In this document: in pieces, positions 14,471-18,757 of the stretch
Layout of the letters: each line of letters starts with the position of its first letter
Numbering within the stretch: position 1 is the first letter of the stretch
Assembly (NCBI GenBank): GCA_003551005.1
Contig: PULR01000049.1
Span: 1 to 49,865 of the forward strand
Direction of reading: 5' to 3'
From: Mollicutes bacterium
Lineage (GTDB): Bacteria > Bacillota_I > Bacilli_A > Izemoplasmatales > Izemoplasmataceae
Length of the DNA stretch: 49,865 nucleotides
The notes under the pieces: generated by a model
The model's input: the letters and a program-made list of their open reading frames with translations, nothing else
Databases searched by the model: none
What the model was told of the DNA's origin: nothing
Position numbers and translations under genes: made by a program

Positions 14471-16858
14471 TCACTCGTCATCCGGATGGTCGGGCCAATC
14501 AAAGAGATAGCCCTGCTGGATGGTGCAACCCAGCTCCATCAATCGATCACGCTGTGTTGGCTCTTCAACCCCTTCCGCGACGATCTGTTTTCCACTCAGT
14601 TCGCTGATGCGCCGGATCATGCGGACAATCTCCCGATTCTTCTGCTTGTCGAGATGCTGGGTGAAGAGGGAATCGATCTTGATGATGTCGAAGGGCACCG
14701 CATCGAGGATGCCGAGGGAAGAGGATTCCTTGCCGAAATCGTCAAGGGCGATGGTGAAACTGTGCTCTTTGAAGGCGTCGATCCGTCTGATGTAGTGCTC
14801 CATGTGATGCACGAATGTTTTTTCCGAGATTTCCACGACCACGTCATTCGCGGTCATGCCATAATGGTCGAGCTGCTTGAGAAGATAATCCAGAAAATCC
14901 GTGTTCATAATCGACTGCGGGGCTAAATTGATTGCGAGGCGCGGGCGGGGCTGGTCCTGGGAAAGGTAGTGTCGACTGAATAATTCGAGCGACCGGTCGA
15001 CGAGATAGCGTTCGAGCGTCAGGATGAGGTTCGAGTCGATGGCGATGCTGATGAAATCCTCGGGCGGAATCGCACCGATGGTCTCATCGGTCCAGCGGGC
15101 AAGCTGCTCGACATAAACCGTGCGGTTGGTCTCGGTGTCCTTCACTTCCTGGAAATGGATGTCGATCGTTTCGCTGTTGATTGCTTGACGGAGCTTGTTG
15201 GCGACATGGATGTTCTGTTGGAGCTTCTGGGTCATGTGCGGCTCATAGCGCACGATGTGATAGATTTTTTCATGGCGGGCTTGTTTCATTGCAAGGCTGG
15301 CGTTGGAGACAAGTTTTGCCAGATCGTGGGTATGCTCCGGGTAGGTCGCATAGCCGATGTTCTTCTTGATCTCGACGGTGATGTCCTCGGTGCGGTGCGT
15401 ACTCGATAGCGAGCGCGACAGGCGCTTGAGCGTGTTTTGAATATTCTCCTCGCTAGCCATCTCGCCATGGCAGTAAAGCACGAACTGATCGCCGGAATAG
15501 CGTGAGGCGAAGCATTGTTTGCTTTCAAATCCTCTGAGGAAATCGGCGATGGAGATCAAGATCCGATTGCCGGTCTCATGCCCATAGTAGTCGTTAATCT
15601 GCGAGAAATTGTCAATGTCGATGAAGAACGCGGCCCCTCTGTCCACATCTGTGAGAGCGGAGATTTCACGATAGAGCCCTCGTTGATTGAGCAGACCGGT
15701 AAGCTCGTCATGGTATTTGTCGAATTCAATCCGGAGATTCGCCTCGACAAGCGGGGTGACGTCATCGCCGCTGATATAGATGTGGCTTAAGCGTCCGTTG
15801 GCCTTCACCCCTTCATAACACCAACGGATCCAGCGGCGGCCCTCGGTGTTCGTGATGTCGAAGATTTCCGTTCCCTGATTGCCTTCAAGCGCTTCATAGA
15901 ACCAATCGTGATTGTGCTGCCCGACCGATTCGTTGATCGTCGTAATGGGTTCGCCGAGGACATCCTTCGGGGTCATGTCATAAAACCGGATCGCCGCACG
16001 CGAAGCGTAGAGAAGACGACCCTCCGAATCCAGCTTGAGGATGATGCTGTGGGAATCGGAGACCACACGCCCGTTCTCTTTCTCGACAGTTGCTAGGACG
16101 TTCTCGTTGTCGGATAGCTGGCGGTCGATGCGCTCGACTTCTGAAGCATCGTAAGCGATGAAGCCTTTCCCCTGCGGCACATCAAAAATCGAATGACGGA
16201 ACATGTTCGTGTAATGAGTCTGTCCGGGAAAGCGCACGCGGAACTCAAGTATTTTCCGTCTCCCGTGGGCCTCTTCTTCTTGGGGAGCGATGTAGGCAAG
16301 ATCGTCGGGGTGGAAAAGCGTCTCGAGGTCGTCATAGTGGAGCATCGTGGATTGCATATCCAGCTGATAGCGCTCGATGAGTGGTTTGCTGAAGCGGATG
16401 AGAACCTGGTCGCTGTCCCATAGATAAAGAACCTGCATGGACAGGGGCTCTCCCTGGGCGCTTTGCGAACGCAGCTGCTTTTCCGGCGGCCGGGTCGCCT
16501 CATAATAAGCGCCTCCTGCAAAGAACGCGACACTCAGCAACGTCGCCGTTCTTCTAAAAATATCACCGGCGAAGAAACCAGCATACAGAGGAAGTCCGTC
16601 GACCGCATTTTCTTTCACTAGTATCGAGAGCACTCCTGCAGCCACGAAACCCGATGTAATGGCGGCGAAGAACTTTCCTTTCCTTCTGGCAATCATAAAA
16701 AAGCCAACGGCGGCTAATCCGCCTGCTATCGCCAGGATGATTGCCGAAAGAAAGATTATCGGATCAAGAAGATTCCCACCATGGACGACCGCCACCACCA
16801 GCAGCGTCACCGGTGTGGCAAGAAGCACGTAGCGTAGCGGTTCATTGAGGAAGGTCAT
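14471..16858 (-). CDS. Membrane PAS-GGDEF-EAL protein, probable c-di-GMP phosphodiesterase
   Basis: About 795 residues. Four hydrophobic helices (about 8-125) anchor it, followed by two PAS-like regions (about 140-240 and 265-385), a GGDEF domain (about 395-545) and an EAL domain (about 560-795). The cyclase signature is degenerate: SGDQF where GGDEF is expected. The EAL domain reads EQL at the name-giving site but keeps the catalytic set: the Glu itself, Asn in AINLAPQS, Glu in VEISEKTF, the DDFG pair, Lys in IIKIDS, EGVEE and the final QQGY. It should hydrolyse c-di-GMP, with the GGDEF part regulatory. The frame allows GTG at 16867, but ATG at 16858 has AGGTGA correctly placed. The promoter region carries one of two 27-bp repeats shared with the neighbouring receptor/pheromone locus. 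Confidence 0.9.
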   Translation of the reverse strand: MTFLNEPLRYVLLATPVTLLVVAVVHGGNLLDPIIFLSAIILAIAGGLAAVGFFMIARRKGKFFAAITSGFVAAGVLSILVKENAVDGLPLYAGFFAGDIFRRTATLLSVAFFAGGAYYEATRPPEKQLRSQSAQGEPLSMQVLYLWDSDQVLIRFSKPLIERYQLDMQSTMLHYDDLETLFHPDDLAYIAPQEEEAHGRRKILEFRVRFPGQTHYTNMFRHSIFDVPQGKGFIAYDASEVERIDRQLSDNENVLATVEKENGRVVSDSHSIILKLDSEGRLLYASRAAIRFYDMTPKDVLGEPITTINESVGQHNHDWFYEALEGNQGTEIFDITNTEGRRWIRWCYEGVKANGRLSHIYISGDDVTPLVEANLRIEFDKYHDELTGLLNQRGLYREISALTDVDRGAAFFIDIDNFSQINDYYGHETGNRILISIADFLRGFESKQCFASRYSGDQFVLYCHGEMASEENIQNTLKRLSRSLSSTHRTEDITVEIKKNIGYATYPEHTHDLAKLVSNASLAMKQARHEKIYHIVRYEPHMTQKLQQNIHVANKLRQAINSETIDIHFQEVKDTETNRTVYVEQLARWTDETIGAIPPEDFISIAIDSNLILTLERYLVDRSLELFSRHYLSQDQPRPRLAINLAPQSIMNTDFLDYLLKQLDHYGMTANDVVVEISEKTFVHHMEHYIRRIDAFKEHSFTIALDDFGKESSSLGILDAVPFDIIKIDSLFTQHLDKQKNREIVRMIRRISELSGKQIVAEGVEEPTQRDRLMELGCTIQQGYLFDWPDHPDDE

Positions 16859-16963
16859 GTGCATCACCTGCTTTAGTCGGAAAGTGCGAATGTACCGGAC
16901 ACCTCATCATTCTCGCCGGAGGGTTGAAACACTTCTCCAGATACATTCTGTTGTGACATTTTA

Positions 16964-17015
16964 ATTATAGGATGCACAACATCCTGTAAACAGCGCGGAT
17001 ATGTCGTAGTTTTAG
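16964..17015 (-). promoter_or_regulatory. Promoter of the EAL gene with 27-bp operator, copy 1
   Basis: TATAAT lies at 16964-16969 on the minus strand. At a 15-base spacing is TTTACA, a suboptimal arrangement typical of activator-dependent promoters. The 27-bp element at 16989-17015 ends within this -35 region and is identical, on the opposite strand, to 18041-18067. A further palindrome (AGGATG/CATCCT, 16969-16985) fills the spacer. Confidence 0.7.
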
Positions 17016-17047
17016 CGATCCGGGCGGATCCAAGGGATAAAGATTAA

Positions 17048-17078
17048 AAAAACAAGGCGCGGTGGGCACCTTGTTTTT
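17048..17078. terminator. Terminator after the receptor gene
   Basis: AAAAACAAGG (17048-17057) pairs with CCTTGTTTTT (17069-17078 region) across a G-rich loop. It follows the receptor stop on the minus strand and separates it from the EAL promoter. Confidence 0.8.
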
Positions 17079-17108
17079 GTCTTATTTTAGCTGTTTTTCA
17101 GGATTTCC

Positions 17109-18029
17109 TCAGCTGATTTCTTTTTTTAGATACTGAATCGCGAAATTGCTGAGGCTGACGCCGAAATCTTTCTCAATCCATGCCGTGAACATGTCGAGCT
17201 TATGCTGATTCGCCTCCATGCGCAGGACGCTAAAGCATCGGAACAGGTTGTGCTCGAATTGCTCATAGTCCTCGAGGGCATGATAGGCAAGCGCCTTATA
17301 ATAGAAAAAATAATCCCAGAGATAATAGTTTTTCGTCTTCATCCCGCGGTTGATCCCCATGTCGCAAAACGAGATGACCTTGTCGTAGTTACGCTGTTTG
17401 CCGTGGCTTTTGCTCAGCCGCATGAGAATCAGGTAATAGATCAGATCCGTACCCCCGCTCATGATCCCTTCCCCGGCCTCGAACAAATCGGAGAGGCGGT
17501 TGAGGAGGGTCTGCCTTTTCGGTGTCTGCTCGAATTCGAGCAGCGAGCTCATGACCAGGACCTCGACATCCGTAAAGTATTGTTGCTTGAGGATGGCTGG
17601 ATAGTTGATTAAATCAGCGGTCTGCCTTGCAGTCGATTCACGCGACAGCCGACCTTCAAAAAAGTTGTTAAGTATGATGGAGTGTTTATAGAAGACCTTC
17701 TTCTCTTCGTCGATAATGAAATCATGACGGAATTCTTTTATCATCCGTTCAACGGTTGGTCGATCACGGGTCACGACCGCACTATAGAAACGATTCAGCC
17801 TGGATGCTTGTTCATTCTTCTCTTTTTCGAATTCGTTCAATAATTTTCTGCTCGGAATACCGAGTTTTTCAGCGAATTTCTCGAGTTTTTCATAGGGAAT
17901 CTCGCTTTCACCACTGCGATAGCGCTGATACTGCCGTAGCGAGACGATTCCGAATACAAACTCTTCCTGCGTGACCTTTCGCCCGAGGCGGACTTTCTCC
18001 AGATAGTTGCTGAGTTCCATGGAATTCAT
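17109..18029 (-). CDS. RRNPP-like peptide-responsive transcription regulator (HTH + TPR-type repeats)
   Basis: About 306 residues. An N-terminal XRE-type helix-turn-helix (about 4-60) shows VTQEEFVFGIVSLRQYQRY and EIPYEKLEKFAEKLGI. The rest is all-helical with TPR-like pairs, for example LIYYLILMRLSKSHGK and YYLWDYFFYYKALAYHAL. Size and architecture match the PlcR/Rgg group of cytosolic receptors for imported peptide pheromones. The start at 18029 is chosen because AGGGGTG lies 7 bases upstream; a GTG at 18038 is also in frame. The divergent gene encodes a secreted repeat peptide, the expected partner. A 27-bp element abuts the start region and recurs upstream of the EAL gene. Family membership is by architecture; no homology search was possible. 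Confidence 0.82.
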   Translation of the reverse strand: MNSMELSNYLEKVRLGRKVTQEEFVFGIVSLRQYQRYRSGESEIPYEKLEKFAEKLGIPSRKLLNEFEKEKNEQASRLNRFYSAVVTRDRPTVERMIKEFRHDFIIDEEKKVFYKHSIILNNFFEGRLSRESTARQTADLINYPAILKQQYFTDVEVLVMSSLLEFEQTPKRQTLLNRLSDLFEAGEGIMSGGTDLIYYLILMRLSKSHGKQRNYDKVISFCDMGINRGMKTKNYYLWDYFFYYKALAYHALEDYEQFEHNLFRCFSVLRMEANQHKLDMFTAWIEKDFGVSLSNFAIQYLKKEIS

Positions 18030-18040
18030 GTGCGTCACCC

Positions 18041-18076
18041 CTAAAACTACGACATATCCGCGCTGTTCAATATAGG
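18041..18076. promoter_or_regulatory. Intergenic 27-bp operator, copy 2, with pheromone promoter
   Basis: 18041-18067 is a perfect 27-base match, in inverted orientation, to 16989-17015. It starts 3 bases from the SD of the receptor and ends just before TATAGG (18071-18076), a possible -10 of the pheromone gene, with ACGACA inside the element as a weak -35. AGGATG follows both copies. It contains only a weak dyad (ACA-N9-TGT), so the binding unit may be asymmetric or longer. Confidence 0.7.
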
Positions 18077-18122
18077 ATGGCGGCGTTACCCTTTAGGTAG
18101 AATCAACCAAGGAGGAGATTTT

Positions 18123-18404
18123 ATGAAAAAACTATTCATCATTGCTATTTTCATGCTCGCTTTAGGAACCATCGGAATGAATGACGGCATCACCCCGGAC
18201 GGCTTCGACGACGACCACTTCCCCGAGTACGTCACCGTCGGCATCACCCCGGACGGCTTCGACGACGATCATTTCCCCGAGTACGTCACCGTCGGCATCA
18301 CCCCGGACGGCTTCGACGACGACCACTTCCCCGAGTACGTCACCGTCGGCATCACCCCGGACGGCTTCGACGACGATCATTTCCCCGAGTACGTCACCGT
18401 CTAA
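18123..18404 (+). CDS. Secreted tandem-repeat peptide precursor (candidate pheromone)
   Basis: A 93-residue protein made of a Sec-type signal peptide (MKKLFIIAIFMLALGTIG, residues 1-18), three linker residues (Met-Asn-Asp), and four identical 18-residue units GITPDGFDDDHFPEYVTV (residues 22-93) that run to the last codon. The units are acidic and have no Lys or Arg, so dibasic processing is impossible. A repeat-only mature part is the design of multi-copy peptide hormones. Divergent orientation to a TPR-type receptor and a shared 27-bp element support a pheromone role. AAGGAGGAG precedes the ATG. A secreted acidic structural or metal-binding peptide is the main alternative. Confidence 0.8.
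   Translation: MKKLFIIAIFMLALGTIGMNDGITPDGFDDDHFPEYVTVGITPDGFDDDHFPEYVTVGITPDGFDDDHFPEYVTVGITPDGFDDDHFPEYVTV
18186..18401 (+). repeat. Four 54-bp in-frame tandem repeats, arranged AB-AB
   Basis: Units at 18186-18239, 18240-18293, 18294-18347 and 18348-18401. Units 1 and 3 are identical, as are 2 and 4; the two types differ at two synonymous positions (gaccac versus gatcat). This indicates a recent duplication of a 108-bp dimer. Confidence 0.97.
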
Positions 18405-18484
18405 AGGGACACAACACTCTTTACTGTAACGATCTTAGATCCCATTTCAACCAAAGATACCCATCGATAAAGGACTGAGTATTT

Positions 18485-18757
18485 ATGGACAAACAGGAAT
18501 TTAAAGTCGAACTCGAAGGTGTCATCGGAACGATTCGCACCTATACGCGGAATCCATTCATGATGGGGTACACCAAAGAGCTCAAGCAGGCGGTCGAAAC
18601 GGACGACTATCAAACCATGCGCCTAGTGCTCGATAAAGTCATTGATTGGTACAGCGAAGAACTAAACAACATCAAGAATGATGAGTTTGTCTTTAACAAG
18701 CACATGCACGAAAAAGCGTTCATCATTCTCAAGCAGTACCGCCAGGCGATTCAATGA
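18485..18757 (+). CDS. Small helical cytosolic protein downstream of the pheromone gene
   Basis: A 90-residue protein of no family I recognise. It has no signal peptide or membrane segment and is predicted to be helical (KELKQAVETDDYQTMRLVL and KVIDWYSEELNNIKNDEF are amphipathic). AAAGGA lies upstream of the ATG. It begins 80 bases after the pheromone precursor, with no obvious terminator between, so it is probably on the same transcript. It could be a modulator of the receptor or of peptide processing; that is speculation from position only. Confidence 0.7.
   Translation: MDKQEFKVELEGVIGTIRTYTRNPFMMGYTKELKQAVETDDYQTMRLVLDKVIDWYSEELNNIKNDEFVFNKHMHEKAFIILKQYRQAIQ

Follow-up and report, generated by a model that had tools for sequence, protein, structure and literature searches.

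Peptide quorum-sensing systems of the RRNPP(A) family (Rgg-SHP, ComR-ComS, PlcR-PapR, PrgX) consist of a receptor of about 300 residues with helix-turn-helix (HTH) and helical-repeat domains, an adjacent gene encoding a secreted precursor, and an operator at the target promoters. RRNPPA propeptides containing several copies of the pheromone are known for AimR, NprR, PlcR and Rap, with up to six identical copies, while none were found for Rgg or ComR (PMC9765709). The PlcR regulon of Bacillus cereus includes Bc3747, which encodes a PAS-GGDEF-phosphodiesterase (PMC2464732). SpbK, an antiphage protein of ICEBs1, binds the phage portal YonE through its N-terminal domain (PMC12847820).

The window analysed here is the whole 49,865-nucleotide stretch (contig PULR01000049.1) from a Mollicutes bacterium of the order Izemoplasmatales. 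To judge from its sequence, one locus in it is likely to be a self-contained RRNPP-type peptide quorum-sensing circuit, controlling a pheromone operon and a c-di-GMP phosphodiesterase. It resembles the RRNPP(A) systems in receptor architecture, in the adjacent secreted-precursor gene and in having an operator at target promoters, and its nearest members are Rgg2, ComR and ElrR by sequence and PlcR, Rgg2, PrgX and ComR by fold. Unlike them, it has its own pheromone core, up to about 11 units per precursor, its own operator, a divergent gene order and a companion gene encoding an SpbK-like domain.

The initial annotation regarded the combination of a repeat-only, multi-copy precursor with a receptor that appears to control a c-di-GMP phosphodiesterase as undescribed. 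This is too strong in two respects: multi-copy propeptides (PMC9765709) and an RRNPP-controlled PAS-GGDEF-phosphodiesterase gene (PMC2464732) have both been described, so neither is new alone. Like the published multi-copy propeptides, the precursors of this family carry several identical pheromone copies; in contrast to the published maximum of six, the largest have about 11 near-identical units, which account for almost all of the mature protein. As in the PlcR regulon, a PAS-GGDEF-phosphodiesterase gene is predicted to be under the control of an RRNPP receptor. However, Bc3747 is one of many PlcR targets, whereas here the EAL gene lies directly behind the receptor gene and is the only target found in this genome besides the pheromone operon. 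The literature searched yielded no account of the combination, of this lineage, of the pheromone core or operator, or of the SpbK-like companion. The novelty lies in the clade, in the family of receptors and pheromones, in the dedicated wiring and in an SpbK sensor-domain homologue that stands alone next to a pheromone gene. The source organisms are environmental relatives of mycoplasmas, in which the cluster is conserved and looks like a cell-to-cell signalling circuit. No paper describing a peptide quorum-sensing family of Izemoplasmatales or related wall-less Bacilli was found in the literature searched, and the circuit, if real, would be the first for these organisms.

The putative receptor, a cytoplasmic HTH and TPR-like transcription factor of 306 residues, is encoded at 17109-18029 on the reverse strand (ATG at 18029; a GTG lies further upstream at 18038). 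It matches HTH_3 with an E-value of 1.4e-4, slightly short of the Pfam cut-off. At E ≤ 0.1, HTH_3 was detected in 21 of 31 members of the receptor family and HTH_19 in 13 of 31 (best 1.3e-7), giving the family the N-terminal helix-turn-helix typical of RRNPP(A) receptors. No family model naming the receptor family was found. When PDB sequences were searched with the receptor profile (A1, hmmsearch), structures of Rgg2, ComR, ElrR and MutR were matched (E 1e-4 to 2e-3). The AF2 model, built from five sequences, is all-helical and of moderate confidence (pLDDT 72, pTM 0.59). All of the PDB entries at Foldseek ranks 1-43 are RRNPP receptors (PlcR, Rgg2, PrgX, ComR, ElrR), with probabilities mostly of 1.0 and modest E-values (E ≥ 3.6e-3), which points to a C-terminal TPR-like superhelix. 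Thus the PlcR/Rgg-like receptor proposed from the sequence was recovered by both searches, and its predicted fold is of the TPR peptide-receptor type rather than an unrelated one.

Receptor homologues were present in 50 of the 101 relative genomes sampled, the named records being Izimaplasma, Acholeplasmatales and Mollicutes metagenome-assembled genomes (MAGs). Most homologues for which upstream sequence was available, in Izemoplasmatales as in other families of this class, lie divergent to a gene encoding a small secreted protein, a precursor with one or many copies of the core. The window's precursor and those of 13 close relatives have several copies, and those of three (L051, L055 and L074) a single one. 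Beside distant receptors (27-39% identity), as in further families of the class, both single- and multi-copy precursors occur, that of L062 having ten units. A linked precursor was not seen beside a minority of distant receptors (L056, L060, L068, L070, L073 and L183). Within the close family, receptors were not found to lack a linked peptide or operator. MAG contigs (L042, L047, L067 and others) often end inside or beside tandem repeats. Assembly of MAGs thus seems to fail at the repeats, a possible reason for the system having been overlooked.

The predicted pheromone precursor (18123-18404, forward strand) has 93 residues. As first annotated, it is divergent from the receptor gene and has a signal-like N-terminus followed by four identical 18-residue units, GITPDGFDDDHFPEYVTV, which include the stretch DGFDDDHFPEYV. 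The four units have one protein sequence and two DNA variants. Precursors of relatives have in common the core (V/L)(D/G)FDDxxxPE(Y/F)(V/I), in one or many copies after the signal peptide. Units within one precursor differ almost solely at silent sites (pooled over 18 precursors, pS 0.43, pN 0.013, pN/pS 0.03). As silent divergence is high and pN low, the protein identity of the units is maintained by selection at most loci. Recent duplication as the source of identical units was rejected because of the high silent divergence in most precursors, though the window's own four units are young (pS 0.11). Known RRNPP pheromones are less acidic than GITPDGFDDDHFPEYVTV-type units, and this counts against a pheromone circuit.

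On a quick receptor tree the precursor changed at least five times between the single- and multi-copy states. If the circuit is real, this natural series could be used to ask why pheromones come as repeats and how they are cut. At L057:6511-6971 (receptor-oriented 1-461), three pheromone genes with one copy each follow one another, a different solution from repeats within a single gene. The precursors of L171, L172 and L173 mix two cores, FENSGxxEW and FKNSGLPE, and possibly yield two signals from one gene.

A 27-bp element is the candidate operator of both the pheromone operon (18041-18067, forward strand) and the GGDEF-EAL gene (16989-17015, reverse strand). A genome-wide scan at ≤ 3 mismatches revealed only these two copies, both perfect, in the 1.35-Mb genome, and the reversed 27-bp control gave no match there at the same threshold. 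A loose core (≤ 1 mismatch) occurred twice in the window against 0.26 expected. The copies point at the peptide and EAL genes rather than at the receptor gene, the peptide-side copy ending 12 bp from the receptor start codon. This corrects the proposal that all three genes share the element in their promoter regions. In close relatives, the element directed at the pheromone gene lies 35-47 bp ahead of the receptor start codon, and that directed at the next gene 35-142 bp past the stop codon. Its consensus is AAAA(C/G)TACGACATATCCGCGCTGTT, with variants in other clades, and both of its positions, ahead of the peptide gene and in the interval from the receptor to the next gene, are conserved across genera.

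The two copies in the window form perfect inverted repeats flanking the receptor gene and might thus mark an invertible or mobile segment instead of being operators. This is hardly credible, since the two copies are not identical in several relatives, and lone copies with an equally spaced -10 precede unrelated genes elsewhere. The conserved promoter spacing in relatives largely refutes such a segment.

Of 80 element sites, 56 had a -10-like hexamer 19-20 nt further on (300 shuffles gave a mean of 5 and a maximum of 11). In the window, the EAL side has a -10 box TATAAT (16964-16969, reverse strand) 19 nt past the operator, and the pheromone side a candidate -10, TACCCT (18087-18092, forward strand), at the same distance, which is a weak match here and better in relatives. 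The operator plus -10 pattern was found in 35 of 101 genomes, comprising all 24 with a close receptor versus 11 of the 77 others (Fisher 4e-15); its reversed control gave zero matches in the 101 genomes. No -35 consensus is present at the element sites. As the invariant element replaces the -35 at a fixed spacing of 19-20 nt, these sites are probably activator-dependent promoters, and the conserved element would be the RRNPP(A)-type operator of both the pheromone and the target promoter. Some Rgg proteins are repressors relieved by peptide, and a receptor of that kind, bound at the element, would keep the pheromone and EAL promoters off until the peptide arrives. Indeed, RNA polymerase could also be obstructed by a protein bound there, as the element overlaps the -35 position. 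However, there is no consensus -35 left to block, and an invariant element at fixed distance resembles activator-dependent promoters, making repression rather unlikely. A terminator-like hairpin (inverted repeat at 17039-17087, reverse strand) lies 3' of the receptor gene. As it would cut the receptor transcript off from the EAL gene, that gene probably depends on a promoter of its own.

The gene at 14471-16858 (reverse strand) encodes a membrane protein for which the PAS-GGDEF-EAL assignment of the initial annotation was confirmed (EAL E 4e-55, GGDEF E 1e-27, and PAS). Its GGDEF motif is degenerate (SGDQF) while the EAL metal and catalytic motifs are intact, so it is predicted to be a c-di-GMP phosphodiesterase. 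Of the close relatives with enough sequence, all 19 encode a GGDEF-EAL protein directly downstream of the receptor. The EAL catalytic and metal-binding motifs are kept in all 16 aligned proteins and GGDEF is degenerate in most; the sensory N-terminus varies among relatives. The window's own genome has 15 GGDEF domains, showing that c-di-GMP signalling is well developed in this organism.

An activated circuit could work as follows. The signal peptide would direct export of the precursor, and cleavage would release several identical, acidic peptides carrying the (V/L)(D/G)FDDxxxPE(Y/F)(V/I) core. At high cell density the peptide would re-enter by an oligopeptide permease and bind the helical domain of the receptor. 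The peptide-bound receptor would act at the 27-bp element, in place of a -35 and 19-20 nt upstream of the -10, and presumably activate two promoters. One would drive the pheromone and the small companion protein, giving positive feedback, and the other the membrane phosphodiesterase; as the activated target is a c-di-GMP phosphodiesterase, a quorum would lower c-di-GMP. If so, a peptide signal would be tied to c-di-GMP directly and with a minimum of parts. The genome has an OppBCDF operon (L132:543-4594, G000 contig C2), which begins 543 bp from the contig end. The OppA domain (PF00496) was not found in this assembly and is possibly off the contig; the position of OppBCDF at a contig end weakens the missing OppA as an argument against import. 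The weak -10 of the window's own pheromone promoter and the moderate confidence of the receptor model count against the circuit. Overall, the receptor fold, the linked repeat precursor, the shared operator and the EAL linkage conserved across genera support the interpretation first offered for this DNA.

A conserved gene at 18485-18757 (forward strand), missed in the earlier annotation, encodes a 90-residue companion, which appears to be a stand-alone homologue of the SpbK N-terminal domain. Its profile (A4) matched SpbK (9phb) with an E-value of 2.9e-14, and the PADLOC spbK model was matched by 18 of 18 companion members (best 5.5e-19). The AF2 model has four helices (pLDDT 92), as expected of the four-helix N-terminal domain of SpbK. 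Pfam and NCBIfam searches gave no family for the companion, SpbK having come from the PADLOC and PDB sequence searches; a Foldseek search of the PDB gave no significant match. Unlike SpbK, the companion has no C-terminal TIR NADase domain, and open frames of the family matches are 58-159 residues long with no fusion. The gene is 3' of the pheromone gene in most close relatives. Among 69 companion-family matches, 43 lie within 2.5 kb of a receptor match, beside receptor paralogues across the order, and most of the remainder are on contigs without a detected receptor. The best guess is that the companion is a protein-binding helper of the circuit.

Homology to a portal-binding domain (PMC12847820), together with this recurrence beside receptor paralogues, would also suit an operon for phage response, with the SpbK-domain protein as sensor of a phage portal and the pheromone and EAL protein working downstream of it. 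Such a role is very unlikely as these short proteins have no fused effector, TIR or otherwise, the companion had no significant Foldseek match, and its family also fits a general protein-binding helical bundle. A broader idea, unlikely though a little less so, is that an ancient and distinct line of peptide quorum sensing extends across wall-less Bacilli and has its own core and operator, with an SpbK-like helper that regularly couples cell density to phage response and c-di-GMP.

Since a small secreted peptide and a small cytosolic helical protein share an operon, the repeat protein could also be a bacteriocin-like effector and the 90-residue protein its immunity protein, the HTH-TPR protein regulating just this pair. 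An operator ahead of a C39-peptidase ABC exporter in L113 fits this idea. Nevertheless, it is most improbable: bacteriocins are usually cationic whereas the unit peptide is acidic, the core occurs in many relatives as a single copy after the signal peptide, as expected of pheromone precursors, and the companion matches SpbK and no immunity family. It also leaves the shared operator ahead of the EAL gene unexplained.

For the putative quorum-sensing receptor, further candidate targets with the operator were found in relatives. These include EAL proteins (L111 and L115), a SLATT_4 protein in L114 (L118 looks alike) and an LRR lipoprotein in L108. The operator-promoter ahead of the bacteriocin-type C39-peptidase ABC exporter is at L113:530-2835 (G022 contig C89). 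In L116 and L117, the operator precedes genes whose large, secreted products show features of CBM96 or DUF6531 (Rhs-like).
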